Positions 24,176 through 47,247 of a stretch of DNA of 64,000 nucleotides are shown in pieces. The position numbers and the translations under genes were made by a program. This stretch comes from Cellulomonas sp. JZ18 (GTDB lineage Bacteria > Actinomycetota > Actinomycetes > Actinomycetales > Cellulomonadaceae). Location of the stretch: contig NZ_CP045245.1 in assembly GCF_009720485.1 (NCBI RefSeq), positions 558,001-622,000 of the forward strand. The letters run 5' to 3'. Numbering within the stretch: the stretch's first letter is position 1; every line of letters starts with the position of its first letter. Below the pieces are notes generated by a model. It was given only the letters and a program-made list of their open reading frames with translations. It was not told where the DNA came from and made no database searches.

Positions 24176-26236
24176 ATGACGTCGCACGTCCCCGGTCTCC
24201 CGCTGTCCGACCACCTGCGCTACGGCGGTGACTACAACCCGGAGCAGTGGCCGCAGCACGTGTGGGACGCCGACCACGCCGCGTTCGCCGAGGCACGCAT
24301 CACGACGCTGACGGTCGGCGTGTTCGCGTGGGCGCACACCCAGCCCGCGGAGGACCGCTACGACTTCTCCCGCCTCGACGCGATCGTCGAGCGCGTCGCG
24401 GCCGAGGGACGGCAGGTCGTCCTGGCGACGCCGAGCGGCGCCATGCCGCCGTGGCTCGCCCGGGCCTACCCGGACGCGTGCCGGGTCGACTTCGAGGGCC
24501 GGCGGCACGTGTACGGGCAGCGGCACAACCACTGCCCGTCGTCGCCGGACTTCCGGCGGCTGTCGGTCGCGATGGCCGACCGGCTCGCCGAGCGGTACGC
24601 CGGGCACCCGGCGGTGGTCGCGTGGCACGTCGGCAACGAGTACGGCGGGGGCTGCTGGTGCGAGCTCTGCACGGCGGCGTTCCGCGTGTGGCTGCGCGAG
24701 CGGTACGGCTCGCTGGACCGGCTGAACGAGGCCTGGAACACCCTGTTCTGGTCCCACGTCTTCACCGACTGGGACGAGGTCCCGGCGCCGTCGATGCTCT
24801 CGGAGCACTGGCGCGGCCCGAACCACACGGCCTTCCAGGGCATCACCCTCGACTACCGCCGGTTCATGTCCGACGCGCTGCTCGGCGGGTTCGTCGCGGA
24901 GAAGGCCGCGATCCGCGCGCACGACGCGACGACCCCGGTCACGACGAACCTCATGGGCTTCTACCAGCCGGTCGACTACCACCGGTGGGCCGAGCACCTC
25001 GACTTCGCGTCGTGGGACAACTACCCGCCGGTGGACGACCCGCTGCGCACGGCCGCGCGCATGGCGGCGACGCACGCCGCGATGCGGGGCCTCAAGGGCG
25101 GGCAGCCGTTCTGGGTCATGGAGCAGACGCCGTCGATCACGGCCTCGCGCGACGTGAACCCGGTGAAGCGGCCGGGGGTGCTCGCGCTGTGGACGTGGCA
25201 GTCGGTCGCGCACGGCGCCGACGCGGCCCTGTACTTCCAGATGCGGCAGTCCCGGGGCGCGTGCGAGAAGTACCACGGCGCGGTGATCGACCACTCGGGC
25301 CGTACGGACACGCGCGTGTTCCGCGAGGTCGCGGAGCTGGGCGGGGCGCTCGCCGTGACGGGCGACGCGCTGCTCGGCGCCCGGACGCCCGCGCGCGTCG
25401 CGCTGCTGCTCGACTGGGACTCCTGGTGGACCGTCGAGATGACCGACGGCTACAACCGGCACGTCGGCTACCTGCCGACGTTCCTGCAGTACCACCGGGC
25501 GCTGTGGCACGCGAACACCCCGGTCGACGTCGTGCCCGTCACCGCGGACCTGTCGGGGTACGACGTCGTCGTCGCACCGCTGCTGCACATGCTCAAGGGC
25601 GACGTGACCGAGCGCCTGACGGCGTTCGTCGAGGGCGGCGGGTCGCTCGTGACGACGTTCTACGGAGGCCGCGTCGACGAGGACACCAACGCGTTCCTGG
25701 GCGCGCCGCCGCTCGACGCCCTGCTGGGCGTGCGGGTCGAGGAGACGGACTCGGCGGCCCCGGGTGCGACGAACCCCGTCGCGCTGCGCCTGGGCCGGTC
25801 CGAGGTGGTGCACGACGCGGGTCTCGTGTTCGAGCTGCTCGTGCCGCACGCGGGCACCGAGGTCGTCGGCACGTACGGCGCGGACTTCTACGCCGGCACG
25901 CCGGCGGTCACGCGGGCCGGGCGCGGCCGGGGCGAGGCGTGGCACGTGGGCACCGGCCTGGAGGACGACGGCGTGGCGGCCGTGCTGCGCGCGGTGCTCG
26001 ACCGGCACGGGCTCGTCGGCCCGCACGCGGGCGACGACGGCGTGGAGGTCGCGGACCGCGTGGCGCCCGACGGCACGTGCTACCGCTTCCTCCTGCACCA
26101 CGGCGACGCCCTGCGCACCGTGACGCTCGAGGTGGGCGGCACCGACCTGCTGACGGGCCGGGAGGTGGCCGTGGGGGAGGAGCTCACGCTCGCCCCAGCG
26201 CAGGTCATGGTGCTGCGGCAGGGTGAGGCCTGCTGA
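24176..26236 (+). CDS. Beta-galactosidase, GH42
   Basis: This is a 686-residue retaining hydrolase. The N-terminus is classic GH42: YGGDYNPEQWPQHVWDAD. The acid/base glutamate is in AWHVGNEYGGGCWCE and the nucleophile in FWVMEQTPS. The metal-site cysteines typical of GH42 appear in CWCELC. A trimerisation alpha/beta domain (about 395-610) and a small beta domain complete it. It is cytosolic and last in the sugar operon, 15 bases after the YesL-like gene. GH42 enzymes cleave beta-galactosides or alpha-L-arabinopyranosides from plant glycans. Its 3' end overlaps the convergent cysC end by 32 bases. Confidence 0.92.
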   Translation: MTSHVPGLPLSDHLRYGGDYNPEQWPQHVWDADHAAFAEARITTLTVGVFAWAHTQPAEDRYDFSRLDAIVERVAAEGRQVVLATPSGAMPPWLARAYPDACRVDFEGRRHVYGQRHNHCPSSPDFRRLSVAMADRLAERYAGHPAVVAWHVGNEYGGGCWCELCTAAFRVWLRERYGSLDRLNEAWNTLFWSHVFTDWDEVPAPSMLSEHWRGPNHTAFQGITLDYRRFMSDALLGGFVAEKAAIRAHDATTPVTTNLMGFYQPVDYHRWAEHLDFASWDNYPPVDDPLRTAARMAATHAAMRGLKGGQPFWVMEQTPSITASRDVNPVKRPGVLALWTWQSVAHGADAALYFQMRQSRGACEKYHGAVIDHSGRTDTRVFREVAELGGALAVTGDALLGARTPARVALLLDWDSWWTVEMTDGYNRHVGYLPTFLQYHRALWHANTPVDVVPVTADLSGYDVVVAPLLHMLKGDVTERLTAFVEGGGSLVTTFYGGRVDEDTNAFLGAPPLDALLGVRVEETDSAAPGATNPVALRLGRSEVVHDAGLVFELLVPHAGTEVVGTYGADFYAGTPAVTRAGRGRGEAWHVGTGLEDDGVAAVLRAVLDRHGLVGPHAGDDGVEVADRVAPDGTCYRFLLHHGDALRTVTLEVGGTDLLTGREVAVGEELTLAPAQVMVLRQGEAC

Positions 26237-26777
26237 GCCGCGCCAGCTCCGGGATGCTCCCCAGGACGGCGGCGACGGCCGCGGACGGCGTCATCCGGTC
26301 GGTGCGCACCCTCAGGTGGGGGTCCCGGGGCACCTCGTAGCGGCCGTCCAGGCCGGTCAGGTTCGTCAGGCTGCCCTCCCGGGCCCGCGCGTACAGGCCC
26401 TTGGGGTCGCGCTGCACCCGGACCTCCTGGGGGGCGTCGACGTGCACGAGGTAGCACGGGGTGCCGTCCGCCCGGTGCATGTCGACGACCGCCTGCCGCG
26501 ACGCCTCGCCCGGTGCGATCACCGCGACGACGGTGACCACGCCGTGACGGGCCAGGAGGCAGGCGAGCCAGCCGACCCGCCGGACGTGGGTGTCCCGGTC
26601 GCCGTCACCGAACCCGAGCTCGGCGGAGAGCACCGGTCTCACGTCGTCGCCGTCGAGGAGCTCGACGCGCGGCACGCCCGAGCGGACCAGCGTGTCGCGC
26701 AGCGCCCGTCCGAGCGTCGTCTTGCCGGCCGCCGAGACCCCGGTCAACCAGATCGTCATGCCGACCGTCGGACCCAT
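26205..26777 (-). CDS. cysC: Adenylylsulfate (APS) kinase
   Basis: This 190-residue kinase phosphorylates APS to PAPS, the sulfuryl donor of sulfotransferases. The P-loop is GVSAAGKTT at residues 14-22; ELLDGDDVRPVLS and VRRVGWLACLLARHGVVTVVA follow. The diagnostic C-terminal stretch is YLVHVDAPQEVRVQRDPKGLYARA with the FISP-like region replaced by VIAPGEASRQ. ATG 26777 has AGAGGAG upstream. It is the last gene of the KAS III-adenylation-cysC operon, and a sulfotransferase is encoded in the facing operon (38678). That pairing suggests a dedicated PAPS supply for the cluster product rather than assimilation; no other sulfate-assimilation gene is nearby. Confidence 0.87.
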   Translation of the reverse strand: MGPTVGMTIWLTGVSAAGKTTLGRALRDTLVRSGVPRVELLDGDDVRPVLSAELGFGDGDRDTHVRRVGWLACLLARHGVVTVVAVIAPGEASRQAVVDMHRADGTPCYLVHVDAPQEVRVQRDPKGLYARAREGSLTNLTGLDGRYEVPRDPHLRVRTDRMTPSAAVAAVLGSIPELARLSRPHPAAAP

Positions 26778-26791
26778 CGGCTCGTCTCCTC

Positions 26792-28392
26792 TCACGTCGT
26801 GGTCCACGCCCCCGCCTCGTCGGGTCGCGGTGCAGCGACGCGGCGCCGCGCGTCGGGGCGGTGGGGGAGGCGGCTGCCCGGCCGGCCTGCGGCGGCGGCG
26901 CCGAGGGCGCGTCGGTCGACCTTGCCGTTGGCGTTCAGCGGGAGGGACTCGAGGAACACGAAGTCCCGGGGCACCATGAACTGGGGCAGGCGCGCGCCGA
27001 CCTCCGCGCGCAGCACCGCCGGCGGCTGCTCCGCGCCGCTGTAGAACGCGACGAGGTGGTCGTCGACGGCGACGGCCGCCGCGTCGGCGACGCCCGGGCA
27101 CGTGCGGACCGCCTCCTCGACCTCGGCCAGCTCGATGCGGGCGCCGCCGACGTTGACCTGGTTGTCGACGCGCCCGACGTAGGCGAAGGAGCCGTCGTCG
27201 AGCCGGCGCACCACGTCACCCGTCCGGTAGTACCGCTCGCCCTCGTGCACGACGAACCGGTCGGCGTCGTCCCGCGGGTCGAGGTACCCCGGGAACACCT
27301 GCACGCCGGCGAGGCACAGCTCGCCCTCGCGTGCGCGCGGGTCCGGCCGGCCCTGCACGAGCAGCGTCGTCGTGTGGCCCTCGTGCATCGTCCCGATGGG
27401 CACGACGCCGTGGACGCACCGGTCGAGCAGGCCGGGTCGCCAGGTCTGCGCGGAGCAGTTGACCGTCGCCTCGGTCGGTCCGTAGAGGTTGTCGACGCGC
27501 GAGTGCGGGGCCGCGGCCTGCCACTCCTGCGCGGCGGAGTGCAGCAACGGCTCCCCGCAGAACAGGCTCAGGCGCAGCGAGGGCAGCGAGCCCTCCGGCA
27601 GACCGCCGAGCCGACGTGCCCTGGCGATCGTGCTCGGCGGCGAGTACCACACGGTGATGCCGTGCCGCGCCACGAACGCCGGCAGGTTCATCAGCGCTGG
27701 TGTGTCCACGCGGACCAGGCGGCCACCCGTCTGCCACGCACCGAACAGGTCCAGGACCGCGCTGTCGAACGTCAGGTCGTGGAACTGGGAGAAGACGTCG
27801 TGGGGGCCGAGGAACCCGTAGCGCGCACGGACGACCCCGAGGTAGTGGCTCGCGCTGCGGTGGCTGATCGGGACGCCCTTCGGCCGTCCCGTCGACCCTG
27901 ACGTGAACATCACGTACGCGACGTCGTCGGGGCGCACGCGCACCGGTGGCAGGGACGGACCCGCCCCGAGGGGCGCCTCGACGACCGCCACGCCGGTCAG
28001 GACGTCGGCCAGCGCGGGCAGCAGGCCCGCACCCCTGCGGTCCACGACCACGGCCTCGAGCCCGGCGGTCCGGACCTGGTGACGGGTCCGCTCCACGGGG
28101 AAGCTCGTGTTCATGGGGACGACGGCCGCACCCGCGCGCAGCGTCCCGAGGACGGCGGAGTAGGCGGCGACGTCGCGATCCATGAGGACGCCGACGCGCC
28201 GCGGTCGGCCTCCCGCGGCCGCGAGGAGCGCCCGGGCGTACGCGTCGGCCGCCCCGACAGCTCCCGGTACGTGACCTCGGCGTCCCGCGACGTCAGCGCG
28301 ACCCCGTCCCGGTGCAGCTCCGCGCCCGCGAGGAAGTGCCCGTACAGCCCCGCGTCGGCCGGGGTCCCGGCCGGCTCGCCCGGGCGCGTCAC
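26792..28392 (-). CDS. Stand-alone amino-acid adenylation enzyme (apparent frameshift)
   Basis: This is an AMP-forming adenylation domain. Motifs in order are EVTYREL near the start, the core loop YVMFTSGSTGRPKGVP, the amino-acid-type FDSAVLDLF with its aspartate, NLYGPTEATVNCSA, YYRTGDVVRR, GRVDNQVNVGGARIEL and the lysine motif PLNANGKVDRRAL. It has no carrier domain. The first 46 codons, from the GTG at 28392, are in a different frame from the rest. One missing G (plus strand CCCC, 28252-28255) explains this and gives 533 residues. The GTG overlaps the KAS III stop. It probably activates an amino acid for the ACP or the condensation domain; specificity is not readable with confidence. Confidence 0.83.
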
Positions 28393-29318
28393 GAGCGGAG
28401 CACCATGGCCGCGAACTCCCCACCGAGCCCGGCGGCCACCATGAGGTAGTGGTCCCCGGGGGCCAGCAGGTCCTTGTGGCCGGCGTCGGTGCGGTTGACG
28501 AGCTGGTCGGCGCCGAAGCAGTGGCCCACGACCGGCAGGAGGTCCAGGTGCACCCGGTCCCGCGGGACGCCGAGCTCCTTGCACGCGGCGCGCCACCAGA
28601 TCCGGTTCACGTTGTGGGGGAGGATCATCCGGACGTCCGCGGGCTCCACCCCCGCACCGGCCAGCGCGTCCCGCATCACCTCGGTGAGGGTCGGGACGTA
28701 GGCGTCGGAGTAGGCCTTCGGCTCGTCGCCCGTCAGGTGCAGCGTGCTGAAGCGGCCCAGTCGCCGGGTGGCCAGGGAGAGCACCACGTCGCACTCCGCC
28801 GACGCGCTGACGAGGCACGCGGCGGCGGACTCGCCCATCACCGCCGTCCCCCGCAGGAGCCTCGGCACGAAGGCCGTGCACTTCTCGCCGGCCAGGACGA
28901 GTCCCAGCGCGTCCGGCTCGCCGTCCGCCGCGAGCAGGCGGCCCACGAGGTCGAGCGCGACGAGCGTCCCCGCGCAGAACCGCTGGGTCAGCGTGAGGAC
29001 GAGGGCGTCGTGCAGGCCGAGCCGGGCCGCGGCCTCGTGAGCGGGGTTCCGCCGCCCGACGTCGGTGTGCTGCGAGGTGCGGGACACCACGACGTACCGG
29101 ACGCGGCGCTCGGCGCCGGGCAGGCCGGCGAGGGACGAGCCCGCGGCCGTGAGGAGGTCCACGTAGTCCAGGTCGGGCGCCTCGCGGACGGCACCCATGC
29201 CGACGAACTTCGTGTAGATGCCCACGTCGACGGGCGACATGCCCAGGGGGCCCGCGAGCTCGTCGAGCCCGACGGACGTCGCCGGCAGGTAGCCGCTCAC
29301 TTCGACGAGACCGGTCAT
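28389..29318 (-). CDS. KAS III-like enzyme (Cys-His-His)
   Basis: This 309-residue thiolase-fold enzyme is related to beta-ketoacyl-ACP synthase III. The acyl-accepting cysteine is Cys115 in TQRFCAGT and the first histidine His235 in LPHNVNRI. The third position, normally asparagine in FabH (GNTSAAS), is His266 in GHCFGADQL. The end GLGGEFAAMVLRS is typical. It closely resembles the protein at 43641. ATG 29318 is preceded by GAGGTGAG. Together with the adenylation enzyme it would condense or transfer an acyl group; the altered triad suggests acyl transfer or unusual condensation rather than fatty-acid initiation. It faces the ATP-grasp operon across a shared promoter region. Confidence 0.82.
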   Translation of the reverse strand: MTGLVEVSGYLPATSVGLDELAGPLGMSPVDVGIYTKFVGMGAVREAPDLDYVDLLTAAGSSLAGLPGAERRVRYVVVSRTSQHTDVGRRNPAHEAAARLGLHDALVLTLTQRFCAGTLVALDLVGRLLAADGEPDALGLVLAGEKCTAFVPRLLRGTAVMGESAAACLVSASAECDVVLSLATRRLGRFSTLHLTGDEPKAYSDAYVPTLTEVMRDALAGAGVEPADVRMILPHNVNRIWWRAACKELGVPRDRVHLDLLPVVGHCFGADQLVNRTDAGHKDLLAPGDHYLMVAAGLGGEFAAMVLRS

Positions 29319-29501: not shown

Positions 29502-30830
29502 ATGACGGCAGAACGCGTGGTGCACCTGGGCAACTTCGACGTCGAGGAGCAGTGGGCCGCGGGCGACCCCGGCCTGCCGGCGCCGACGGTGCGGTCGGCG
29601 TCGGCCGTGACCGCCGCGGCCGGTGAGCTCGCGCTGCTGGTCGCCGCGGACGGGCACACCGTCGTCGTCAAGCACCGCCCGGAGGAGGGGCTGCTCGCCC
29701 AGCACGAGCGTCTCGGGTTCGGTGCGCCCGAGGTGCTCGTCGCCGGCACGACGCAGCCGGACCGCCCCGTCACGCTCGACGTCCTGGGGTCGCCCGCGAC
29801 GCTCGACCGCCTCCGCGAGCGTGCGGCCGAGGGCGCCCGGCTCGCTCCGCACGGCTTCTCCGCCGCGGAGGACGAGCTCTGCGCGGTGACCGGCCTGCGT
29901 CGACCGGTGGCCGCCGACGTGGCGGCCGTCAAGCGCATCAACGGCAAGGTCTTCAGCCGGCGGCTCACCGCCGAGCTCGGCCTGCCCCGGCCGCAGGGCT
30001 GGGAGTGCGAGACGGTCGACGAGCTCCAGGGGCTCGCGGCCCGGGTCCGCGCGGTCCTCGAGGCGGGGCGCGCCGTCGGTCTCAAGTCGTCCTGGGGCGT
30101 GTCCGGCAAGGGGATCATGGTCTGCGAGGACGTGGCGCGGTTCGACCAGCTCGTCCGGCTCCTCACCCGCCGTGCGGAGCGCAGCGGCGACCACCGGTTC
30201 GAGGCGGTCCTCGAGGTGTGGCAGGACAAGCGGACCGACCTCAACTACCACTTCACGATCGAGGACGACGGCCGGGTGCGGTTCGACTTCGTCCTCGAGG
30301 CGATCACCGAGGACAGCACGCACCGGGGGCACCGGCTGCCCGACCGCGGCGACCCCCGGCTGCGCGAGCAGCTCGTCGACTGCGCCGAGCGGATCGGCGC
30401 GCGGCTGGCCGACGAGGGCTACCGCGGCCCCGTCGGGGTCGACGCGATCGTCTGCCAGGACGGCACCCTCTTCCCGGTCCTGGAGATCAACGCGCGCAAC
30501 AACATGTCGACGTACCTCACCGGGGTGCAGACGCGGCTGCGCGACGCGGGCTCCGTCGGCGCCGCCGTCCAGATCGACCTCTCGCTCGCCGCGCCCCTGC
30601 GCCACGAGGAGGTCGAGCGGGCGCTGCAGGGCCTGCTCCTGCGGCCGGACTGGCGCGACGGGTTCCTCGTCACGTGCAGCGCGTCGCTCAACGCGTCGGC
30701 CGCGTGGGGCAAGGTCCCGTTCCGCGGCCGGCTGCACGGCGTCGCCGTCGGTCCCGACGACCCCGCCGTGGCCGACCTGGCACGGACAGTCCAGGAGCGA
30801 CTCGAGAAGGCGGTGGCCGATCGTGCATGA
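29502..30830 (+). CDS. ATP-grasp ligase, probable aminoacyl-ACP synthetase (BtrJ-like)
   Basis: The product is 442 residues. An N-terminal domain (1-150) precedes an ATP-grasp fold: KVFSRRLTAELGLPRP, the nucleotide lysine segment AVGLKSSWGVSGKGIMV, EVWQDKRTDLNYHF, and the metal site VLEINARNNMSTYL with Glu and two Asn. The gene order ATP-grasp / PLP decarboxylase / ACP matches butirosin btrJ-btrK-btrI, where BtrJ loads glutamate on the ACP. By analogy it should attach an amino acid's carboxylate to the carrier with ATP. The amino acid is unknown. I choose ATG 29502, four bases after GAGGGA. It is the first gene of a nine-gene operon with overlapping ends. Confidence 0.8.
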   Translation: MTAERVVHLGNFDVEEQWAAGDPGLPAPTVRSASAVTAAAGELALLVAADGHTVVVKHRPEEGLLAQHERLGFGAPEVLVAGTTQPDRPVTLDVLGSPATLDRLRERAAEGARLAPHGFSAAEDELCAVTGLRRPVAADVAAVKRINGKVFSRRLTAELGLPRPQGWECETVDELQGLAARVRAVLEAGRAVGLKSSWGVSGKGIMVCEDVARFDQLVRLLTRRAERSGDHRFEAVLEVWQDKRTDLNYHFTIEDDGRVRFDFVLEAITEDSTHRGHRLPDRGDPRLREQLVDCAERIGARLADEGYRGPVGVDAIVCQDGTLFPVLEINARNNMSTYLTGVQTRLRDAGSVGAAVQIDLSLAAPLRHEEVERALQGLLLRPDWRDGFLVTCSASLNASAAWGKVPFRGRLHGVAVGPDDPAVADLARTVQERLEKAVADRA

Positions 30831-32127
30831 GCAGCTGACCATCCAGGGTGTCCCCGTCGCCGACATCGTCGCCGTCCACGGGTCACCGACCTACGTGTAC
30901 GACGGCGAGGCGCTGACGCAGCAGTACCAGCGGCTGCGCGATGCCCTCCCGGCGGCGGTCGACGTCTTCTACTCGCTGAAGGCGAACCCGAACGTCGCGC
31001 TCACGGCCCTCCTGGTCCGTGCGGGTGCGGGGGCCGAGGTGTCGTCGCTCACGGAGCTGCGGACGGCGCTGCGGGCCGGCGTGGACCCCGCGGACGTCAT
31101 CTTCCTGGGGCCTGGCAAGAGCGACGACGAGCTGCGCGAGTGCTGCGAGCTCGGGGTGCGGGCCGTCGTCGTCGAGTCCCTGCCCGAGCTCGCGCGGCTC
31201 GACGCGGTGGCGGGTGCGGCGGGACGACGGCAGCCGGTCCTGCTCCGCGTCAACCCGGACTTCCAGGTCAAGGGCAGCGGCCTGACGATGGGGGGCAAGG
31301 CCCGCCAGTTCGGCGTCGACGTGGACCAGGCGGTCGCCGCGGGACGCGCCGTCGGGGCGCACGAGTGGGCGCGCGTCGTCGGTGTCCACGTGTACATGGG
31401 CACGCGCATCCTCGCCGCCGAGGCCGTCGTCGAGAACACCGAGCGGATCCTCGCGCTGGCGGAGAGGGTCGCCGAGGCGTGCGGCATCGACCTCGAGGTC
31501 GTCGACGTCGGCGGAGGGCTGGGGGTGCCGTACTTCCCCAAGGAGGACCCCCTGGACCTCGACGTCGTCGGACGAGGCGTGCGGGACGCGGTCGAGCGCT
31601 TCCGTGCCCGGCACCCCCGGGTCCGGATGATCCTCGAGTCCGGTCGCTACCTGGTCGCCGAGTGCGGCACGTACGTGCTGGGCGTCCGGTACGTGAAGGA
31701 GTCGTTCGGGGAGCGCTTCGCCGTGGCGGACGGCGGCACGAACCACCACATGGCGGCGGTCGGGATCGGGTCGGTGCTGAAGCGGAACTTCCCGATGGGC
31801 CTCGTGGGCAGGGCGTCCACGGCGCCGACCGCGCCCTGGCACCTCACCGGCCCGCTGTGCACGCCGGCGGACGAGCTGGGCAAGAACGTCGACCTGCCGT
31901 CCGACCTGCGGCCCGGTGACCTGGTCGGGGTCTTCCGCTCGGGGGCCTACGGGCCGACCGCCTCACCCGTGCACTTCCTCAGCCACGGGTACCCCGCGGA
32001 GGTCCTCGTCCACGACGGCGAGGTCCACCTGGTCCGCCACCGCGACACCCCCGAGGACATGCTCCGCCAGCAGGTCCTGCCCACGATTCTCGACCCTGTG
32101 ACGACCGACGAGGGAGCACTGCTGTGA
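30823..32127 (+). CDS. PLP-dependent decarboxylase, fold type III (BtrK-like)
   Basis: This 434-residue enzyme belongs to the diaminopimelate/ornithine decarboxylase superfamily. The PLP lysine is in VFYSLKANPN (near residue 50). Phosphate and ring contacts appear in VDVGGGLGVPYF and ESGRYLVAECGTYV. The dimer-interface catalytic cysteine segment is GPLCTPADEL. Free-standing lysine biosynthesis is unlikely because the gene is sandwiched, with overlaps, between an ATP-grasp ligase and an ACP. In butirosin, BtrK of this family decarboxylates glutamyl-ACP to gamma-aminobutyryl-ACP, and the same on-carrier reaction is proposed here. Very similar proteins also occur in exopolysaccharide loci, so the substrate needs testing. 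Confidence 0.85.
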   Translation: MHEQLTIQGVPVADIVAVHGSPTYVYDGEALTQQYQRLRDALPAAVDVFYSLKANPNVALTALLVRAGAGAEVSSLTELRTALRAGVDPADVIFLGPGKSDDELRECCELGVRAVVVESLPELARLDAVAGAAGRRQPVLLRVNPDFQVKGSGLTMGGKARQFGVDVDQAVAAGRAVGAHEWARVVGVHVYMGTRILAAEAVVENTERILALAERVAEACGIDLEVVDVGGGLGVPYFPKEDPLDLDVVGRGVRDAVERFRARHPRVRMILESGRYLVAECGTYVLGVRYVKESFGERFAVADGGTNHHMAAVGIGSVLKRNFPMGLVGRASTAPTAPWHLTGPLCTPADELGKNVDLPSDLRPGDLVGVFRSGAYGPTASPVHFLSHGYPAEVLVHDGEVHLVRHRDTPEDMLRQQVLPTILDPVTTDEGALL

Positions 32128-32423: not shown

Positions 32424-32448
32424 CCGGGCGGTGCGGGAGGGCGGGACT

Positions 32449-38677: not shown

Positions 38678-39898
38678 ATGCGCACGCCCACGCGGCCCCC
38701 GGCCGCACCCAACGCCACGAGCAAGGCCGCCATGCGGGCGTTCCTGGATCCCCGCCGCCGCGTGCAGAGGGCGGCGGACGCCTGGGACGGCGCCGTGGGC
38801 GCGGCCCTCGAGCAGGCGGGCCTCGACCTCGGCGAGGACGAGGGGCTCGCGGCGGGCCTCGGGCGCTACGTGTCCTGCCTCGCAGGCATGCCGGACCTGA
38901 CCGCGTCCGGCTGGCTGCAGCTCTTCGGCGGTGCCGTCGCACGCTTCCAGAACCGGTTGCGCGTGCGGGCCGTCCTCGAGGAGCGCCCCGAGGTCCTGCT
39001 CGAGGAGATCCGGGACCCGGTGTTCGTCGTCGGCCTCCCGCGCAGCGCGACGACCGTGGTACACCGGTTCCTCGCCGGCCGGCCGGGCCATCGCGGCCCG
39101 CTGCTGTGGGAGTACTCGCACACGGCCCTGGAGCTGCCGGAACCCGAGCGCGCCGCCGCTGTGGGGGCCGTCGACGAGTACCTGGACGCGCTGCTGCGCG
39201 CGGCGCCGGGGTTCTCCGACATCCACCACGTCGGCGGCGAGGAGCCGGAGGAGTGCGACTGGCTGCTGCCCCACTCGAACCTCTCCCTGACCCTCGCGGC
39301 CACCGACGACTACCGCGGCTGGCTCGAGGCGCGGGACGTGCGCCCGGACTACCGGTACCTGAGGCAGGCCCTGCAGGTGCTGCAGCACGGTCGTGCGCCG
39401 CGACGGTGGATCCTGAAGTCGCCCGGGCACGTGTCGCACCTCGCCGCGATCGCCGAGGTGTTCCCCGGGGCGCGCTTCGTGTGGACGCACCGGGACCCGG
39501 TCGAGGTCGTGGCTTCCTACTGCAGCCTCGTCGAGTCGCTCTCCCGGGCGCACCGCGGTGCGCTGTCGCCGCAGGAGGTCGGCCGGTTCTGGTGCGCGCG
39601 GCTGGCGGCGTCCGCGCACGCGGGCAGCGCCCAGCGGGCGGCGCTGCCGGGCGCCGTCGTCGACGTCGCCTACCGCTCGCTCGTCGCGGACCCCCGTGGC
39701 GAGATGGAGCGGGTGACGGAGCACGTCGGCGGCCGGTGGACGCCCGCGGACGACGAGGCCGTGCGGAGGGTCTTCGGCGGCCGGGCCGGCGCCGGGACGC
39801 ACCGGTACTCGCTGGACCGCTACGGGCTGACGGCGCACGAGGTCGAGGACGCGTTCGCCGGCTACCTGGCCGACATGCGCCCGTGGCTGTCGAGGTAG
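38678..39898 (+). CDS. PAPS-dependent sulfotransferase
   Basis: This is a 406-residue soluble sulfotransferase. The 5'-phosphosulfate loop is FVVGLPRSATTVVHRFL (residues 116-132) and the 3'-phosphate region is WTHRDPVEVVASYCSLVESLSR. WILKSPGHVSHLAAI is the usual core strand-helix between them. It belongs to the actinobacterial type that includes the mycobacterial menaquinone sulfotransferase Stf3. It lies 23 bases after the exporters and overlaps the phosphopantetheinyl transferase by 16. It should transfer sulfate from PAPS to a hydroxyl (or amine) of the product; the cluster's own cysC would provide PAPS. Confidence 0.87.
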   Translation: MRTPTRPPAAPNATSKAAMRAFLDPRRRVQRAADAWDGAVGAALEQAGLDLGEDEGLAAGLGRYVSCLAGMPDLTASGWLQLFGGAVARFQNRLRVRAVLEERPEVLLEEIRDPVFVVGLPRSATTVVHRFLAGRPGHRGPLLWEYSHTALELPEPERAAAVGAVDEYLDALLRAAPGFSDIHHVGGEEPEECDWLLPHSNLSLTLAATDDYRGWLEARDVRPDYRYLRQALQVLQHGRAPRRWILKSPGHVSHLAAIAEVFPGARFVWTHRDPVEVVASYCSLVESLSRAHRGALSPQEVGRFWCARLAASAHAGSAQRAALPGAVVDVAYRSLVADPRGEMERVTEHVGGRWTPADDEAVRRVFGGRAGAGTHRYSLDRYGLTAHEVEDAFAGYLADMRPWLSR

Positions 39899-40581
39899 AC
39901 GTCTGGTCCGTCGACCTCGACGAGGACGCACCCCCCACGTCCGCCGTGCTCCACCTCCTCACCGCCGAGGAGCGCACGCGGGCCGCCGGCATGGCGGCGG
40001 GCCGACGCCGTGAGTTCGTGCTGTGCCGCGCGGTCGTGCGCCGTCTCCTCGCCGGTCGGGCGGGCGTCCCGACGTCGGCGGTCCGGTGGGGGACGGGCAG
40101 GGACGGCAAACCCGGACCCGCCGGGGGCGTGCACTGGAACCTCACGCACGCGGGGGGACGTGCGCTCGTCGCCACGTGCGCGTCCGCACCCGTCGGTGTC
40201 GACCTCCTCCGCGCCGACGCGGCGGGCGGGACGGCGGGCGTCGTGCGCCGGTTCGGCACCGCGGCCGAGCGCAGCGCCCTGCAGGCGGCGCCGGAGGGCG
40301 ACCGGCAGGCTGTCGCCGCGCAGCTGCTGGCCCGGCGCGAGGCGTGCGTCAAGGCGCTCGGCGGGCGGCTGCTGGACCTGCTCGACCTCGACGTGCCGGG
40401 TCCGGGTGAGCCGTGCTCGGCCGGGCGCGTGCTCACGACGGCCGACGTGCCCGTGGCGCCCGGCTGGGCGGCCGCCGTGGCCGCCGCCGCTGCGGGGCCG
40501 GTCACCGCGCGGCAGCACCGGTGGTGCTGGCGGGCGCCGACGGGGGCCCCGGGGCACGCCGCGTCAGGGGTCGGGCCGTAG
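39883..40581 (+). CDS. 4'-Phosphopantetheinyl transferase, Sfp type
   Basis: The product is 232 residues with the two-half Sfp/Gsp fold. Motifs are HWNLTHAGGRALVA, the metal aspartate in APVGVDLLRAD, and the second metal-site segment LLARREACVKALGG (the K/R-E-x-x-x-K-A pattern). It converts apo-ACP to holo-ACP using coenzyme A. GTG 39883 overlaps the sulfotransferase end. It is the last gene of the plus-strand operon and meets the SARP gene tail to tail with an 18-base overlap. Its obvious substrate is the ACP encoded at 32124. Confidence 0.87.
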   Translation: MAVEVDVWSVDLDEDAPPTSAVLHLLTAEERTRAAGMAAGRRREFVLCRAVVRRLLAGRAGVPTSAVRWGTGRDGKPGPAGGVHWNLTHAGGRALVATCASAPVGVDLLRADAAGGTAGVVRRFGTAAERSALQAAPEGDRQAVAAQLLARREACVKALGGRLLDLLDLDVPGPGEPCSAGRVLTTADVPVAPGWAAAVAAAAAGPVTARQHRWCWRAPTGAPGHAASGVGP

Positions 40582-41370
40582 CTGGCGCTGCGCGGGCCCC
40601 AGCGTGAGCGCGTCGGCCGTCTCGAGCACCTTGTCGTGCCGCAGCACCGCCTGGTACACGGCCTGCAGGCCGGGGCTGACGTCGATGCCCAGCTCGTCGC
40701 GCAGCCGCTTGCGGGTGCCGTGGAACACGTGGTGCGCGCTGCCCTGCTGACCGGTGCGGAACAGCGCCACCATGAGCAGCTCGACCCCGCGCTCACGCGT
40801 CGGTGCCGCCTCCGTCAGCCGCCACAGGTCCTCCAGCGCGGCGACGTCGTCGCCCAGCTCGAGGCGGATCTCGGACAGCTGCTCCTCCGCCTGCGCCTTC
40901 AGCCGCTCCAGACGCACGCGCTCCAGCCGCAGGAGCGTGGTGTCCCGCGTGCCGACGAAGGGCGTGCCGCGCCACACGGACAGGGCGGTCTCGAGGAGCT
41001 CCAGCGCCCGTCGCTGGTCGGTGTACCGGACGTTGCGGGCGGCGTCGAGGGTGGCGCGAAACCCGTGGAAGTCGACGTCGGTCGCGTCGACGTCGAGCAC
41101 GTACCCGCCGCACATGGTCCTGACGGCGGACCCGTCCGGCCCGTCGAGGATGTCCAGCGCGCGGCGCAGACGCATGACGACCGCCTCGAGCGCGTTCTTC
41201 GACGGCGTGGGCCGGCCTTCCCACATCACGCTGAGCAGGGTCTCCCGCGTGACGACCTGACGTCCGTGCACGGCGAGGACCGAGAGCAGCGTGCCCAGCT
41301 GCACGGACGAGATCGCGGTCACCTGGTCGTCGGTGGAGGCCTCGAGGGGGCCGAGGAACCGCAGACGCAC
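40564..41370 (-). CDS. SARP-family pathway activator
   Basis: This is a 268-residue Streptomyces antibiotic regulatory protein. An OmpR-like winged helix (residues 1-95: FLGPLEAS, LLSVLAVHGRQVVTRETLLSVMWE, LEAVVMRLRRAL) is followed by the bacterial transcriptional activation domain (105-250: helices with TDQRRALELLETALSVWRG and ISPGLQAVYQAVLRHDK-like end). There is no ATPase module, so it is a small SARP. GTG 41370 is used. It lies between the biosynthetic operons and probably activates them through the 11-base-period repeats at 29431 and 43504. Its own promoter has a LacI-type palindrome. Confidence 0.87.
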   Translation of the reverse strand: MRLRFLGPLEASTDDQVTAISSVQLGTLLSVLAVHGRQVVTRETLLSVMWEGRPTPSKNALEAVVMRLRRALDILDGPDGSAVRTMCGGYVLDVDATDVDFHGFRATLDAARNVRYTDQRRALELLETALSVWRGTPFVGTRDTTLLRLERVRLERLKAQAEEQLSEIRLELGDDVAALEDLWRLTEAAPTRERGVELLMVALFRTGQQGSAHHVFHGTRKRLRDELGIDVSPGLQAVYQAVLRHDKVLETADALTLGPAQRQLRPDP

Positions 41371-41596: not shown

Positions 41597-42487
41597 CTAC
41601 GGCAGGAGCGCGACGGCGACGCCGCCCACCTGGGCGTCGTGCTCGACGACCAGCACGCCCCCGTCGCCCGGCCGCGCGCCGTCCTCGGCGAGCGTCTCCC
41701 ACACCGCGGTGGCGGGGAGCGCGCCGGCGGCGGCCCGTGTCACCGCCGCACCCGGCACGAGGGCGTGGGCCCAGGCGGAGGGCACGGTCGAGCCGAGCAC
41801 GACCCGCGCCACGCCCGACGTGCCGTCGACGGCCGCGGCCGCCTCCCGCGCGGTCGCGGCCGCCACCTCCTGCGGTGATGCCACGCGCAGCCCCTGGCGG
41901 CCGTGCACCCGCAGCCCGGGGCCGGGGGTGGCCTCGAGGAGCAGCGCGACCGCGACCCCGCTCGGCGCGTCAGCGGGGCGCCGGAGCCGGTCGCCGTACG
42001 GGAGGCGGTCCTGCTCCACCACGGCGACGACCACCCGCTCGTACCGCTCGCGGGCCGCGAGCGCGGTCGCGAGGCGGATCGCGGTGAACCCCGAGAGCGC
42101 ACCGCGGTCCGTGACCGCGAAGGAGTCGCCGTGCCGGACCCCGATCTCATGCGCCGCCTGCAGGGCGGCCAGCGTGTCGAACGTGACGTCGTGCAGGGCG
42201 TGGGCCACGACCAGCAGGTCTGGCGGTGCCCCGAGGTCGAGCGCCCCGACCGCACGGACCACCATCGGGCCGTACGCGTGGCCCGTTCTGCCGTCGCCCC
42301 GGCTCGGCTCCTCGAGCGGGAAGTGGCGGCGCATGACCTCGGCGGCGTCGTGCGGCGTCACGGGCTGCGTCGGTGCGCCGGACCGGACCGCCACGACGGC
42401 GGTCGCGGCGTACCCGCCGACCGCGGATCTCCCGGGCCCGGCGGGACCCGTCTCGGTGTCGGCCTGGTGCCGGATCGGCATCCGCAT
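41597..42487 (-). CDS. KAS III-like protein lacking the active cysteine
   Basis: This is a 296-residue thiolase-fold protein. The region that aligns with the cysteine turn of its neighbours (TQRFCAGT) reads TDRGALSG, with Ala130 in the cysteine place. The third-site segment (GHCFGAD) also has no counterpart, and the end reads VLVVEHDAQVGGVAVALLP. It therefore cannot form an acyl-enzyme. It starts 23 bases after the intact KAS III gene 42511-43437 on the same strand. By analogy to PqsB with PqsC, it probably forms a heterodimer in which it shapes or stabilises the active partner. This is inference from pairing; no fold comparison was run. Confidence 0.7.
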   Translation of the reverse strand: MRMPIRHQADTETGPAGPGRSAVGGYAATAVVAVRSGAPTQPVTPHDAAEVMRRHFPLEEPSRGDGRTGHAYGPMVVRAVGALDLGAPPDLLVVAHALHDVTFDTLAALQAAHEIGVRHGDSFAVTDRGALSGFTAIRLATALAARERYERVVVAVVEQDRLPYGDRLRRPADAPSGVAVALLLEATPGPGLRVHGRQGLRVASPQEVAAATAREAAAAVDGTSGVARVVLGSTVPSAWAHALVPGAAVTRAAAGALPATAVWETLAEDGARPGDGGVLVVEHDAQVGGVAVALLP

Positions 42488-42510: not shown

Positions 42511-43437
42511 TCAGTGCCGGAAGACCGCTGCGGCGAACACGGCCCCGATCCCGACGGCGGTCACCAGGTAGTGGTCACCGGGGGCGAGGCGGTCGTCGTC
42601 GAGCGCCGCCCGGAGGTTGAGGAAGGTGTCCGCGCCCCAGCAGTGCCCCGTCCGGGCGAGCTCGGAGACGATCCGGCTCCTCGGGATCCCGGTGCGCGAG
42701 GCCCCCATCGCGGAGATCAACCGGCTCGTGTTCATGGGCAGGTACAGCGCGATGTCCTGCCCCGTGAGCTCCGCGCCGTCGAGCGCCTGCGCGACGACCG
42801 AGTCGAACGTCTCCCAGTGCACCGCGGAGAAGTGGGCGCGAGCGGCGTCGTCCATCGCCATGCTGGACCCGCCGACGGGCACCGGTTCGCTGCGGTAGGA
42901 CAGCAGGACGTCCGACGGCCCCTGCGCCGACACCAGGACCGCCGCGGTCGCCTCGCCCTGCAAGGACATGCCGGGGATGACGCGGTTGACGCGCCCGTAG
43001 GTCTTCTCGCCGACGAGGAGGAGAGCGAGCGCGTCCGGGTCGGGGTCCGCGGCCAGCAGGGTGCCCGCCAGGTCGAGGGCGTGCAGGGCGCCGGCGCACG
43101 CGCGGTCCTGGAGGGTGAAGGACTCCGCGTGCTCGAGCCCCATCGCACGGGCCACCGTCGCCGCCGGCACCTCCGGGTACGGCGCGGACCAGCGCATCGA
43201 GCGCGACCGGACGACGTACCGGACGGCCGGTGCGAGGGACGCGAGGGACCCGAGGTTCCTCGCCGCGCCCAGGAGCAGCTCGGCGTCGCTGGTCGCCGGG
43301 TCGTGGCAGACCGTGCCGTAGCCGTGGCTGCGGACGAACGTCCGCAGCTCGTCGTCCGTGAGCCCGAGGTCCTCCTGGAGCTCCGCGACCGGCACCCGTG
43401 GCGGCAGGAAGACCGCGACCTCGCGCATCGCCGTCAT
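42511..43437 (-). CDS. KAS III-like enzyme with Cys but Met at the His position
   Basis: The product is 308 residues. The nucleophile is Cys114 in LQDRACAGALHALDL. The position of the usual first histidine (LPHN in relatives) reads LPMNTSRL, with Met235. A histidine is kept at the third site, His265 in GHCWGADTFL. The end GIGAVFAAAVFRH is family-typical. ATG 43437 follows GGGAGGGG. It is the first gene of a minus-strand operon driven by the SARP-type promoter, followed by its cysteine-less partner. Acyl transfer to an acceptor, rather than decarboxylative condensation, is the likelier chemistry. Confidence 0.78.
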   Translation of the reverse strand: MTAMREVAVFLPPRVPVAELQEDLGLTDDELRTFVRSHGYGTVCHDPATSDAELLLGAARNLGSLASLAPAVRYVVRSRSMRWSAPYPEVPAATVARAMGLEHAESFTLQDRACAGALHALDLAGTLLAADPDPDALALLLVGEKTYGRVNRVIPGMSLQGEATAAVLVSAQGPSDVLLSYRSEPVPVGGSSMAMDDAARAHFSAVHWETFDSVVAQALDGAELTGQDIALYLPMNTSRLISAMGASRTGIPRSRIVSELARTGHCWGADTFLNLRAALDDDRLAPGDHYLVTAVGIGAVFAAAVFRH

Positions 43438-43488
43438 CCGGCACCCCTCCCGCGTCGTGCGTCGTCGTCCCGAACCCGGGCGCCCGTG

Positions 43489-43532: not shown

Positions 43533-43640
43533 TGGGACGCGAGCGGTATTGGCTCGTCCGGGCCGCTGCGGCACAGTGGGCGCGCCCACCCCGGAGGACC
43601 CTGCCCGACGGGCCCCTGCCGCACGCCCACGGAGGCACAC

Positions 43641-44573
43641 GTGACGAGTCTCGTCGAGCTGGGCGCCCACCTGCCGCCGCAGTCGGCCACGCTGGCCGAG
43701 CTCGCGGCCCCGCTCGGCATGTCGGAGCAGGACGTGCAGGTGTACACGAAGTTCCTCGGCATGTCCGAGGTGCGGGTGGCCGGTGACGCGGACTACGGCG
43801 ACCTCCTCGTCGCCGCGGGCCGCACCCTCACGGCGCTGCGGGGGCAGGAGCACCGCGTCCGCTACGTCATCGCGGCGCGCAGCATGCAGATCACCGGGAT
43901 GGGGCGGCGCAACCCCCTGCACGAGGCGGCCGCCCGGCTCGGCGTCCCGCACGCCGTCACCCTGACGCTGACCCAGCGGTTCTGCTCGGGCACGCTCACC
44001 GCCATCGACCTGGCCGGCAGGCTGCTGGACGCGGACGGCGACGCCGACGGGCTGGCGGTCGTGCTCGCCGGCGAGAAGTGCATCCCGCACACGTTCTCCC
44101 AGCTCGTCGACGGCGTCGCGGTGATGGGCGACTCGACGGCGGCGTGCCTGGTCGCGCCCGCGGGGGACCGCGACGTGGTGCTGTCCGTGGCCACGCGGCG
44201 GCTCGCCCGGTTCGGCACGCTGACGATGGCGCCGGAGGAGTACAAGGAGTACTCCCGGCTCTACGCGCCGACGATCTCCGCGGTGGTCCACGACGCGCTC
44301 GACCGGGCGGGCGTCGCGCTGGCGGACGTCGCCCTGGTGCTCCCGCACCACGTGAACGTCTTCTCCTGGCGGGGCGTGTGCAAGGAGCTCGGGCTCGCGC
44401 GGGACCGCGTCCACCTCGACCTGCTGCCGGTCACCGGGCACTGCTTCGGGGCCGACCAGCTCATCGCGCACGTGGACGCGGCGCGCAAGGCACGCCTGGA
44501 GCAGGGCGACCTCTACCTGATGGTGGCCACCGGTCTCGGCGGCGAGTTCGCGGCCATGGTGCTGCGACGGTGA
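43641..44573 (+). CDS. KAS III-like enzyme (Cys-His-His)
   Basis: The product is 310 residues, a close paralogue of the protein at 28389. The nucleophile is Cys115 in TQRFCSGTLTAIDL, the first histidine His236 in LPHHVNVF, and the third-site residue His267 in GHCFGADQL. GTG 43641 follows GGAGG at 43631. It is divergent from the 42511 gene and is followed after 52 bases by a cysteine-less KAS-like protein, repeating the pairing of the other operon. Its acyl substrate may be the enoyl or acyl thioester shaped by the acyl-CoA dehydrogenase encoded two genes downstream. Confidence 0.82.
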   Translation: MTSLVELGAHLPPQSATLAELAAPLGMSEQDVQVYTKFLGMSEVRVAGDADYGDLLVAAGRTLTALRGQEHRVRYVIAARSMQITGMGRRNPLHEAAARLGVPHAVTLTLTQRFCSGTLTAIDLAGRLLDADGDADGLAVVLAGEKCIPHTFSQLVDGVAVMGDSTAACLVAPAGDRDVVLSVATRRLARFGTLTMAPEEYKEYSRLYAPTISAVVHDALDRAGVALADVALVLPHHVNVFSWRGVCKELGLARDRVHLDLLPVTGHCFGADQLIAHVDAARKARLEQGDLYLMVATGLGGEFAAMVLRR

Positions 44574-44625
44574 CCGCCCGGGCCGCCGCCCCCGCTGCCG
44601 ACCACGAGAGAGGAAGGAGAACGGC

Positions 44626-46002
44626 ATGCTGATGAAGGAGACGGACGTCGTCCTCGAGGCGGTGCTCGACGTCGACCTCCCCCCGGTCGCCGAGCGGTCC
44701 CTCGAGGACGTCGAGAAGATCCGCCGCTCCGCGGCGTGGCTCTACGGGGTGGACGTCGCGGACGTCGAGCCGCCCGGGCGTGACCACCCCGAGCTCCTCA
44801 CCGCCGCGCTGCGCGCGCTCGCCGACCGCGGCTACGCCGACGTCTCCGTGTGCGTGATGGCGCTGTCCACGCCGGACGTGCAGTACGAGAAGTCGCTCGC
44901 CGCGTTGTTCTCGGCCGGCACCGCGGCCGAGCCGAGCGTCGTGGGGGTGACGGAGCAGGGGCTCGCAGGGCCGTTCACCGCCCTGCGGCTCGCCGCGCTG
45001 GAGCTCGCCACCACCGACGGACGGGCCGTCGTCCTCGTCCCCGACCTCCGTCCCGTGGTGCCGACGCCGGGCCGGCAGCTGACGGAGGACCGGATGGTCG
45101 TGCTCGTCCTGCGCCGCGGGGGCGCGGGGCGCGTGGTGCGGGGGCTGGAGGTGCGACGCACCCCGGACCCCCTCCCGGGCAGCCACCCGTCCACCCGCGC
45201 CGGGGACGGCACCGTCACCGTCGTGGGGCACCACGTCGAGCGTCCGGACGACGCCGTCCTCGTCCCCCGGGACGGCGCGTTCACCACCGGCGTGTGGGAG
45301 GTCCTCGCCCGCCTGCTCGCGGACGAGGACCACGCACGGGCGCCGATCGCCGTCGTCGAGGAGGACCACCTGCTCGGCTACCGCTGCGAGCTGCTGCTCG
45401 GACCCGCCCACCGCGTGCCGGACGTCGACGGCTACCGGCGCGTGGCCGCCGCGCACGGCGCGGCCGACGCCCTCGCGCGCGCCGCTCGGGACCTCGTGCC
45501 GGCCGGGCCGGTCGTCGTCCTGCCCGCGGACCACGAGGCGGGGGCCGGCTACCGCCGGCTGGCGACGCTTCCCACCGACGGTGCCGACCTGACGGTGTGG
45601 CGCTCGACCACGGAGCAGGGGGACGCGGCACCGCCGTCGGACTGGGACCTCGCCGTGACGTGGATCCGCCTGGGCCTGACCGAGCGGCTGCTCGCCGCCG
45701 TCGTCGCCCACCTGCAGGGCCGCCGAGTGGGGGGCGTGGTCACCGCGTCGCTGGGGCCCGTGAAGGTGCAGGTCGCCGACGTCGTGCTGCGCCAGCTCGA
45801 GGCCGAGGCCCTGCTGACCGCGGCCGACGCGCCCGCACGTGCCTCGGTGCGGGAGGCGGGCCTGCTGCTCGACGACGCGGTGCGCGACTGCATCCGCCTG
45901 CTGGGTGCGGCGGGCTTCGCCGACACCCCGCTCGCGCGCAGCGCCTACGCGGCGGACATCCTCGGGAACGTCGGCGACGTGAGCATCGGAGAGCCCGTAT
46001 GA
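44626..46002 (+). CDS. Cysteine-less KAS III-like protein with C-terminal helical extension
   Basis: The product is 458 residues. The first 300 or so resemble KAS III. The active-site turn reads VTEQGLAGPFTALRLAALELA, with Leu113 where relatives have cysteine, so it is not an acyl-enzyme former. From about residue 350 a helical region (WIRLGLTERLLAAVVAHLQGR, then IRLLGAAGFADTPLARSAYAADIL) resembles the C-terminal helices of acyl-CoA dehydrogenases; that is a tentative reading. AAGGAGA precedes the ATG. The stop overlaps the acyl-CoA dehydrogenase start. It is probably a scaffold subunit for the KAS III encoded upstream, perhaps also contacting the dehydrogenase. Confidence 0.65.
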   Translation: MLMKETDVVLEAVLDVDLPPVAERSLEDVEKIRRSAAWLYGVDVADVEPPGRDHPELLTAALRALADRGYADVSVCVMALSTPDVQYEKSLAALFSAGTAAEPSVVGVTEQGLAGPFTALRLAALELATTDGRAVVLVPDLRPVVPTPGRQLTEDRMVVLVLRRGGAGRVVRGLEVRRTPDPLPGSHPSTRAGDGTVTVVGHHVERPDDAVLVPRDGAFTTGVWEVLARLLADEDHARAPIAVVEEDHLLGYRCELLLGPAHRVPDVDGYRRVAAAHGAADALARAARDLVPAGPVVVLPADHEAGAGYRRLATLPTDGADLTVWRSTTEQGDAAPPSDWDLAVTWIRLGLTERLLAAVVAHLQGRRVGGVVTASLGPVKVQVADVVLRQLEAEALLTAADAPARASVREAGLLLDDAVRDCIRLLGAAGFADTPLARSAYAADILGNVGDVSIGEPV

Positions 46003-47146
46003 CGACCGTGATCAGCCAGGGCGAGCTGCACGACCTCGCGCTCACCCTCCGCGAGCACGCCCTGGACGTGGACCGCGACCCGGACCGGTACCCGGCCTTC
46101 CTGGAGCAGGAGGAGGTCCGGCTGCGCGGCCGCAGAGCGACCGGGGATGGTCCCGAGGCCCGCCGGCTCGCCGTCGACGGCGACGTGGTCCCGCTGGACT
46201 CCTGCCTCGCCAACGTCGTGATCGCCGAGGAGCTCGCGTGGGGCGACGCCCCGATGTCCATCGGCCGCAAGGGTCCGGCGATGGCCGGCTACGTCGTGGG
46301 CGCGATCGGGAGCGAGGAGCAGAAGGAGCGGTTCTTCGGCCACCTCGCGGGACGCGAGGCGTGGACCTACTTCGCGCTGACGGAGCCCGAGCGGGGCTCG
46401 GACCCGGCGGCGATGACGACGCAGGTCGTCGGAGGCTCGCGGGGCGAGGGGCGGGTCCGTGGCACCAAGAAGTACATCGGGAACGCGGCACGAGCGGACC
46501 TGGGGGTGGTCTTCGCCCGGCACAGCGCCGGTCCGCTCGGGTCGGCGCGTACCTCGTGGAGACCTCCCGCGCAGGGTTCGGGGCCCGGCCCCTCGCGACC
46601 CTGGGCTTCCGTGCGCTCCAGCTCAGCGAGGTGGTCCTCGACGACGTGGAGGTCACCCGGGCGGACCTCCTGGGCTCGCACCTGCCCCCGTCCCGGCGGG
46701 GCATGGGCGCCGCGACGAACGTCTTCTACACGCTGCGTCCGCAGCTGGCGGCGTCCGCGCTGGGGATCGCGTGCGCGGCGCACGACTACGTCGCCGCGCA
46801 CCGCCGGGACCTCGACGCGGCGGAGCGGGCGGCGATGGCACGCTTCGGTGCGCGCATCGCCGCCGTGCGGGCCGTCATCCGCACGGCCGCGCGCGAGATC
46901 GACGCGGGACGGCTGCTGGGCGGACCGGGCTCGGCGTCGAAGGCGCTGGCCGTCGCGCTCGCCGACGAGCTCGTCAACGCCGCGCCGCGCTTCCTCGGCC
47001 CCGGCTCGCGCTGGGAGCACCCCTTCCTGGACAAGTGGATCCGCGACCTGCGCGGCCTGGAGCTGATGGAGGGGACGTCCACGGTGCAGAAGCTGACGCT
47101 GGCCCAGGCCTACGCGCAGCGCGAGACCGTCGCGCGTCGGGGGTGA
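45999..47146 (+). CDS. Acyl-CoA/acyl-ACP dehydrogenase (apparent frameshift)
   Basis: This is a flavoprotein of the acyl-CoA dehydrogenase family. The N-terminal helical part has IAEELAWGDAPMSI, the middle has the FAD-region segment TYFALTEPERGSDPAAM and KKYIGNAARAD, and the C-terminal part has the catalytic-region LELMEGTSTVQKLTLAQ. The two parts are in different frames and join if one G is added to GGG at 46539-46541, giving 382 residues, the family's normal length. The ATG overlaps the previous stop. It would introduce an alpha,beta double bond into an acyl thioester of the pathway, passing electrons to an electron-transfer flavoprotein encoded elsewhere. Confidence 0.82.
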
Positions 47147-47241: not shown

Positions 47242-47247
47242 GAGCCG

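Follow-up and report, generated by a model that had tools for sequence, protein, structure and literature searches.

The window analysed here is a 64,000-nucleotide stretch (positions 558001–622000, ∼75% G+C) of the single-contig, 4.04 Mb genome of Cellulomonas sp. JZ18. At 26205–47146 it contains a biosynthetic cluster of 18 genes that can be read from the sequence itself as one inserted unit with a conserved operon, including a preATP-grasp ligase, a pyridoxal phosphate (PLP) decarboxylase, an acyl carrier protein (ACP) and ketoacyl-ACP synthase III (KAS III)-type proteins. We judge the chances to be even that the cluster arrived by horizontal transfer and directs synthesis of a small sulfated metabolite by the route proposed below.

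An 18-gene block between the GH42 and TerC genes

The TerC gene of the window (47374–48426) has orthologues at 86–87% in two congeners among 35 genomes examined. In both congeners a GH42 gene, 79–80% identical to that of the window, directly adjoins TerC, and the flanking genes match those of the window at ∼73–93%. DNA similarity to the congeners ends at 26217–26221 on the left and restarts at 47233–47250 on the right. The ∼21.0 kb between these points (26222–47232) are absent in both congeners, which carry ∼120–140 unmatched bases between GH42 and TerC. We attribute to chance a short similarity of 29 bases (E 8.5e-4) that links 46945–46973 to the intergenic DNA of a congener. The ligase gene was found in 2 of the 81 genomes of the genus, that of the window and G007 (43%).

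Since the site is empty in two congeners and a counterpart block is present in Glycomyces (see below), the comparison indicates that the block is a single unit that was inserted; the difference could conceivably reflect loss from the congeners, instead of gain here. The grouping goes beyond chance, because the site is empty in two congeners and most of the genes recur together elsewhere. The limits and the single biosynthetic unit of the original prediction are borne out, the former coinciding with the limits of the insertion; loss of synteny was looked for in relatives and did not occur. There was no tRNA in the window, no integrase or recombinase among the 18 cluster genes, no Rfam match in 26000–47500, and no match longer than 10 bases, direct or inverted, between the block ends. 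On the other side of TerC, 48593–54291 (up to the gene at 54347) is a second block without equivalent in the congeners (L143 and L144), with genes for a GntR regulator, an ABC importer with an NMT1-like binding protein, an isochorismatase-family protein and an MFS protein.

Genes were called by codon usage and then assigned with Pfam and NCBIfam, and the condensation (C) gene was added afterwards. The APS kinase, the adenylation (A) enzyme and KS1 come first on the minus strand, followed on the plus strand by the genes from the ligase to the 4′-phosphopantetheinyl transferase (PPTase), on the minus strand by SARP, KS2 and KS3, and last on the plus strand by KS4, KS5 and the acyl-CoA dehydrogenase (ACAD):

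26205..26777, minus strand: APS kinase, supply of 3′-phosphoadenosine 5′-phosphosulfate (PAPS) (PF01583, E 7e-47)
26792..28423, minus strand: stand-alone A enzyme of the amino-acid type, with an uncertain start (PF00501/PF13193)
28389..29318, minus strand: KS1, KAS III-type, C-H-H triad, KS4 paralogue (PF08541)
29517..30830, plus strand: preATP-grasp ligase, proposed ACP loader for a diacid amino acid (PF18604)
30823..32127, plus strand: PLP decarboxylase, BtrK-like, ornithine/diaminopimelate (DAP) type (BtrK is the best solved relative)
32124..32423, plus strand: ACP (PF00550, E 1.8e-10; 63% to Glycomyces ACP1)
32431..33576, plus strand: cytochrome P450 (PF00067; 52.5% to Glycomyces P450)
33573..34957, plus strand: stand-alone C domain gene, frame-broken near 34403–34418 (PF00668)
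34954..36804, plus strand: ABC exporter half 1 (PF00005; 66% to Glycomyces)
36906..38654, plus strand: ABC exporter half 2, with a possible start at 36885 (PF00005, weak PF00664; 65% to Glycomyces)
38678..39898, plus strand: PAPS-dependent sulfotransferase (PF13469, E 3.9e-36; 47% to Glycomyces)
39883..40581, plus strand: PPTase (PF01648, E 1.9e-7)
40564..41370, minus strand: SARP-type regulator (PF03704, E 6e-33; PF00486)
41597..42487, minus strand: KS2, pseudo-KAS III without catalytic residues (family matches, Ala at the Cys site)
42511..43437, minus strand: KS3, KAS III-type, C-M-H with one catalytic His missing (PF08541)
43641..44573, plus strand: KS4, KAS III-type, C-H-H triad (PF08541)
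44626..46002, plus strand: KS5, pseudo-KAS III fused to a small ACAD-C-like domain
46003..47146, plus strand: ACAD, frame-broken within 46424–46541, exact start unsettled (PF00441)

Nearly every family name of the original gene list proved right. Among other cluster families, Pfam and NCBIfam recognise KAS III in three proteins and the C-domain of an ACAD, and KS2 and KS5 have no match to Pfam. Neither database shows a malonyl transferase, ketoreductase or dehydratase among the cluster genes, and Pfam shows no modular polyketide synthase (PKS) among the 18; C, A and ACP are stand-alone genes, unlike those of a modular non-ribosomal peptide synthetase (NRPS). Half 1 of the exporter, searched over 396 genomes, gave only general ABC relatives (35–47%). 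The sulfotransferase family is common in actinobacteria, with Glycomyces among the nearest named sources in the best 120 of 135 proteins.

The counterpart block of Glycomyces xiaoerkulensis (contig NZ_PGGV01000012.1; G345:C4, ∼61.1–78.7 kb) occupies 17.6 kb on one strand. Its order is KAS III, ligase, decarboxylase, ACP, pseudo-KAS, small ACAD-like protein, ACAD, PPTase, P450, C, the two ABC halves, sulfotransferase, second KAS III, second ACP and A enzyme. By reciprocal match, 15 of the 18 window genes have counterparts in this one block (ligase 63% and decarboxylase 73% identical); KS2 is outside the 15, with a family link and no direct match to the Glycomyces pseudo-KAS. Glycomyces has two KAS III proteins where the window has three, keeps pseudo-KAS and small ACAD-like protein separate, and carries an extra ACP, whereas a single ACP and no second one was found in the window. 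Closer proteins are on short contigs of other sources (ligase 84%, sulfotransferase 83%). A GH42 relative (40%) lies ∼8 kb past the Glycomyces cluster (G345:C4:86402–88309; loci L127 and L128); the presence of GH42 near both clusters is probably coincidence.

Comparison with Glycomyces also located the frame breaks. Residues 1–259 of its C protein match frame 3 of the window and residues 255–415 match frame 2, with the switch at 34403–34418. Its ACAD likewise matches frames 3 and 2. Homology of the A enzyme begins at Glycomyces residue 72, and the N-terminus is not in frame; the N-terminal part is apparently in another frame. Such breaks in 3 of the 18 genes, the lost catalytic residue of KS3 and the missing second ACP would fit a decaying cluster without product, with A, C and ACAD as pseudogenes. 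Against decay, the other genes are open, and the essential leucyl-tRNA synthetase gene of the same assembly (G000:C1:1496280–1499191, L142) is also split, into two open reading frames in different frames (480 and 490 amino acids) that each score >420 bits to the bacterial model. Because of this split and a genome completeness of 96.66%, versus 99–100% in the best congeners, residual assembly indels are likely the simplest cause of the breaks, and we hold decay to be improbable. Other genes of this genome are to be read with possible assembly indels in mind.

A module conserved across actinobacteria

A profile search of genome contigs with the ligase gave 117 confirmed loci, the best 80 of which were retained. 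Presence counts refer to the 70 with room on both sides (10 without room were omitted), with gene calls made in this analysis and gene families defined by single-linkage BLAST. The ligase recurs in a module with the order KAS III, preATP-grasp ligase, BtrK-like decarboxylase, ACP, pseudo-KAS, small ACAD-like protein and ACAD. Its partners are present in 60 (decarboxylase), 59 (KAS III), 60 (ACP), 56 (pseudo-KAS), 52 (small ACAD-like) and 55 (ACAD) of the 70 loci, with all six in 49, and KAS III is present in 58 of the 60 loci that have the decarboxylase. Across the 80 loci, KS directly precedes the ligase in 66; the ligase is followed by the decarboxylase in 68, the decarboxylase by the ACP in 62, the ACP by the pseudo-KAS in 59, and the pseudo-KAS by the small ACAD-like gene and the latter by the ACAD in 51 each. 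Neighbours mostly overlap or have short gaps (ligase/decarboxylase median overlap, 4 bases).

The preATP-grasp enzyme could be a PGM1- or BesA-like peptide ligase that makes a dipeptide, with ACP, decarboxylase and KAS proteins using another unit. The best Foldseek matches of its AlphaFold model (pLDDT 93.3), 3wvq, 8ynd and BesA (8yi6), are ATP-grasp peptide/amino-acid ligases at ∼20% identity, BesA is the sole relevant solved relative by sequence, and 9 of the 70 loci have the ligase without decarboxylase and without KAS III. However, the ligase adjoins the decarboxylase in 68 of 80 loci with the ACP directly next in 62, and ACP loading by an ATP-grasp enzyme has a parallel in BtrJ of butirosin. 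We therefore regard dipeptide formation as unlikely and retain ACP loading as the proposed role. Nine Amycolatopsis loci (L081, L083, L084, L085, L089, L092, L101, L104 and L105) have the ligase without family decarboxylase or KAS III; with their PALP/OCD-type and type II ketosynthase genes they represent a different use of the ligase.

What accompanies the module varies. Pfam on examples identified large AMP-ligase/NRPS proteins and 2,3-diaminopropionate-type genes; PALP is present in 22 loci and an OCD/mu-crystallin gene in 20. Of the 17 loci with type II ketosynthases, 8 also have the decarboxylase; L072 has a KS-KR-DH protein. A further back end is an AMP ligase with its own ACP, which in the two loci tested comes with two more ACADs (L110) or one (L131); by a sequence motif, such AMP ligases resemble fatty-acyl-AMP ligases. 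Methylaspartate mutase E is present in 9 of 80 loci by family (by Pfam in L059, L064 and L070), with a B12-binding partner gene. The mutase E chain of L064 (5129–7585) carries a fused class II aminoacyl-tRNA-synthetase-like domain; L059 has the synthetase-like protein as a gene of its own next to the mutase. Beside the module on Streptomyces decoyicus plasmid NZ_CP108348.1 (L125:30582–41287) are genes annotated as asparagine-synthase-like, enoyl-CoA-hydratase-like and TauD-like, with annotated DAHP synthase and TrpC genes in the neighbourhood, a set that presumably recalls carbapenem genes.

KAS III-type and pseudo-KAS proteins

The five KAS III-related proteins are not equivalent, and a reading as five equal synthases was rejected. 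In an alignment of 58 rows (short rows were omitted here and in the tree), KS1 and KS4, which carry the KAS III C-terminal domain (PF08541), have a full C-H-H triad (C115 and H236), KS3 is C-M-H and lacks one catalytic His, and KS2 and KS5 are pseudo-KAS proteins with Ala and Leu, respectively, in the Cys column. All 58 family members have His in the third triad column, as do KS1, KS3 and KS4. The triad of FabH is C-H-N, and its third catalytic residue, Asn, is not found in KS1 or KS4; C-H-H belongs to the decarboxylating KAS I/II enzymes. KS2 matches 35 of 62 pseudo-KAS family members and none of the KS family. The N-terminal part of KS5 is in the pseudo-KAS family (the VIA comparison covered residues 1–261), and its C-terminal part, assigned by sequence, matches the small ACAD-C-like protein family. 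The alignment indicates that the pseudo-KAS proteins have lost the catalytic residues.

KS1 is 62% identical to KS4, and the two are sister paralogues with support 100 in a quick tree of 66 rows. KS3 pairs with the enzyme of congener G007, also with support 100 in this tree, where long branches, KS3 included, are flagged; the pair falls within a clade whose members come from Streptomyces, Amycolatopsis, Saccharothrix and similar loci. The nearest relative of KS2 is a Saccharothrix pseudo-KAS (37%) and that of KS5 a Cellulosimicrobium pseudo-KAS (41%). Because distances and the one tree give the same split, the cluster seems to combine parts of two module lineages, one represented by KS3 and KS2, the other by KS4, KS5 and ACAD.

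The KAS III proteins may transfer acyl groups and form no C–C bonds, the product being an amide or ester made by A, C and the KAS-type transferases. CerJ, ChlB3 and NatS transfer acyl groups in this way; ChlB3 tops the VIA list for the pseudo-KAS proteins, which also includes NatS. The cluster has no malonyl transferase, ketoreductase or dehydratase, and in Glycomyces each loading enzyme has an adjoining KAS III. By contrast, the two intact members retain the C-H-H triad of decarboxylating KAS I/II enzymes, and in related loci the module is accompanied by type II ketosynthases or a KS-KR-DH protein, which would fit a chain-initiating enzyme. We rate pure acyl transfer as somewhat short of an even chance. 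The predicted synthesis of an amino-acid unit by the KAS III proteins is not supported as it was put, acyl transfer being as possible as C–C bond formation.

Proposed pathway and comparison with known systems

We infer every reaction below, the sequence of the steps, the heteromers and the product. The preATP-grasp enzyme would use ATP to attach a diacid amino acid to the ACP through the side-chain carboxyl; Asp or 3-methyl-Asp is the likeliest substrate, with Glu as the alternative. The α-carboxyl would then be taken off by the BtrK-like decarboxylase, leaving a β- (or γ-) aminoacyl-ACP, an ω-aminoacyl thioester. A heteromer of ACAD and the small ACAD-like part of KS5 could introduce an α,β-double bond, giving an amino-acryloyl or aminocrotonyl thioester, and an active KAS III with its pseudo-KAS III partner, like PqsC/PqsB, might move or extend the acyl unit. 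The A enzyme, with pocket letters DSLYLCLVNK by alignment and 295.7 bits to TIGR01733 (under the cut-off of 317.4), would activate a second amino acid, with amide-bond formation left to the C domain. The P450 is predicted to oxidise, the sulfotransferase with its own APS kinase to sulfate, the paired ABC transporter to export, SARP to regulate and the PPTase to activate the ACP. Release may proceed via the C domain, a KAS III or spontaneous ring closure.

Loading before decarboxylation, as predicted, is in keeping with the decarboxylase being nearest to BtrK among solved structures (296.8 bits versus 194.9 for the best DAP decarboxylase); a separate lysA-like gene is elsewhere in the genome. 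Dedicated sulfation appears likely from the APS kinase, the sole APS-kinase match in the genome, which has no match among called proteins of 87 related loci, and the exporter genes point to export. As an interpretation, the original prediction is therefore upheld in part: unit, loading, sulfation and export stand, and the role given to the KAS III proteins does not.

Several findings weigh against the proposed route. The frames of A, C and ACAD are broken in this cluster, one catalytic His is missing from KS3, and 11 of 57 pseudo-KAS proteins have some Cys within ≤4 columns of the Cys site. Neither APS kinase nor SARP was found in Glycomyces at 50.0–95.0 kb. The decarboxylase passes the NCBIfam lysA cut-off (308.8 versus 297.9), and an exosortase-associated decarboxylase model outscores lysA on it, yet stays under its own cut-off. 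The fold neighbours of the ligase are amide-bond makers, and the mutase is absent from the window and could instead feed the NRPS of the loci that carry it. At least one module gene is missing in 21 of the 70 loci; 10 have the ligase without decarboxylase (9 of them also without KAS III), so it is also used in other ways.

The sulfate could also be a leaving group, introduced after P450 hydroxylation and followed by ring closure or elimination. P450, sulfotransferase and APS kinase are grouped together, and sulfate elimination in aziridine formation is a feature of azinomycin-type pathways; PMC9570651 mentions this elimination once. No dedicated cyclase was recognised, however, and every gene has another role, and we think such a route doubtful. 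Because a sulfotransferase accompanies a proposed β-aminoacyl-ACP, sulfation might also take the form of monobactam-like N-sulfonation.

These data tentatively suggest, at a confidence well below even, that the module is a chain-initiation machine, in which (i) ligase, decarboxylase and ACP would give an ω-aminoacyl thioester; (ii) ACAD and pseudo-ACAD would convert it to an aminoacryloyl (enamine) thioester; and (iii) a C-H-H KAS III and a pseudo-KAS III would condense it. Back ends would vary: NRPS, type II ketosynthases, acyl-AMP ligase with C, or, here, A, C and sulfation. If this holds, a recurring operon (decarboxylase by the ligase in 60 of 70 loci) would be tied to testable chemistry, an ATP-grasp-made aminoacyl-ACP that undergoes oxidation and is handed on, each enzyme having a catalytically dead relative as partner. 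The starter unit could then be predicted for many clusters that await characterisation, in genera such as Streptomyces, Micromonospora, Saccharothrix and Cellulosimicrobium, and the compact 18-gene version, with its near Glycomyces relative, would be a convenient study case.

A search of the open-access literature, with MIBiG and subscription journals outside it, found no description of the whole module. Within that literature the core module appears undescribed, and the original claim that no described cluster has this gene set is uncontradicted there.

Like BtrI/BtrJ/BtrK of butirosin, a system that acts on ACP-tethered glutamate, the window combines an ATP-grasp enzyme, an ACP and a BtrK-like PLP decarboxylase. 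It has no aminoglycoside genes of the butirosin type, and butirosin is not known to have counterparts of the KAS, ACAD, A, C and sulfotransferase genes. PqsBC belongs to another pathway, and the KS/pseudo-KAS pairing proposed here comes from co-occurrence. Cispentacin-type synthesis was dropped as a model, since PMC10698177 describes type II PKS machinery and the cluster has no KAS I/II-type gene.

In the vicenistatin pathway, according to PMC11284099, VinN charges VinL with 3-methyl-Asp, VinO decarboxylates the thioester form only, a further adenylation enzyme attaches an amino acid, and the cluster also has a glutamate mutase. The proposed loading and decarboxylation steps have direct precedent, because VinN and VinO act in this way. 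The likeness to VinL/VinN/VinO/VinM is a diacid amino acid on a stand-alone ACP before PLP decarboxylation, and a stand-alone ACP adjoining a PLP decarboxylase is a vicenistatin/fluvirucin-type trait shared here and in 62 of 80 loci. The loader of vicenistatin is an adenylation enzyme in the same text, whereas the candidate loader here is the preATP-grasp protein; the A enzyme of the window groups with KS1 on the strand opposite to the operon. No type I PKS, which receives the starter in vicenistatin- and fluvirucin-type systems, is among the 18 window genes, and the KAS III, pseudo-KAS and ACAD genes are extra relative to vicenistatin. The kind of cluster is already known: carrier-protein amino-acid chemistry with stand-alone NRPS parts.

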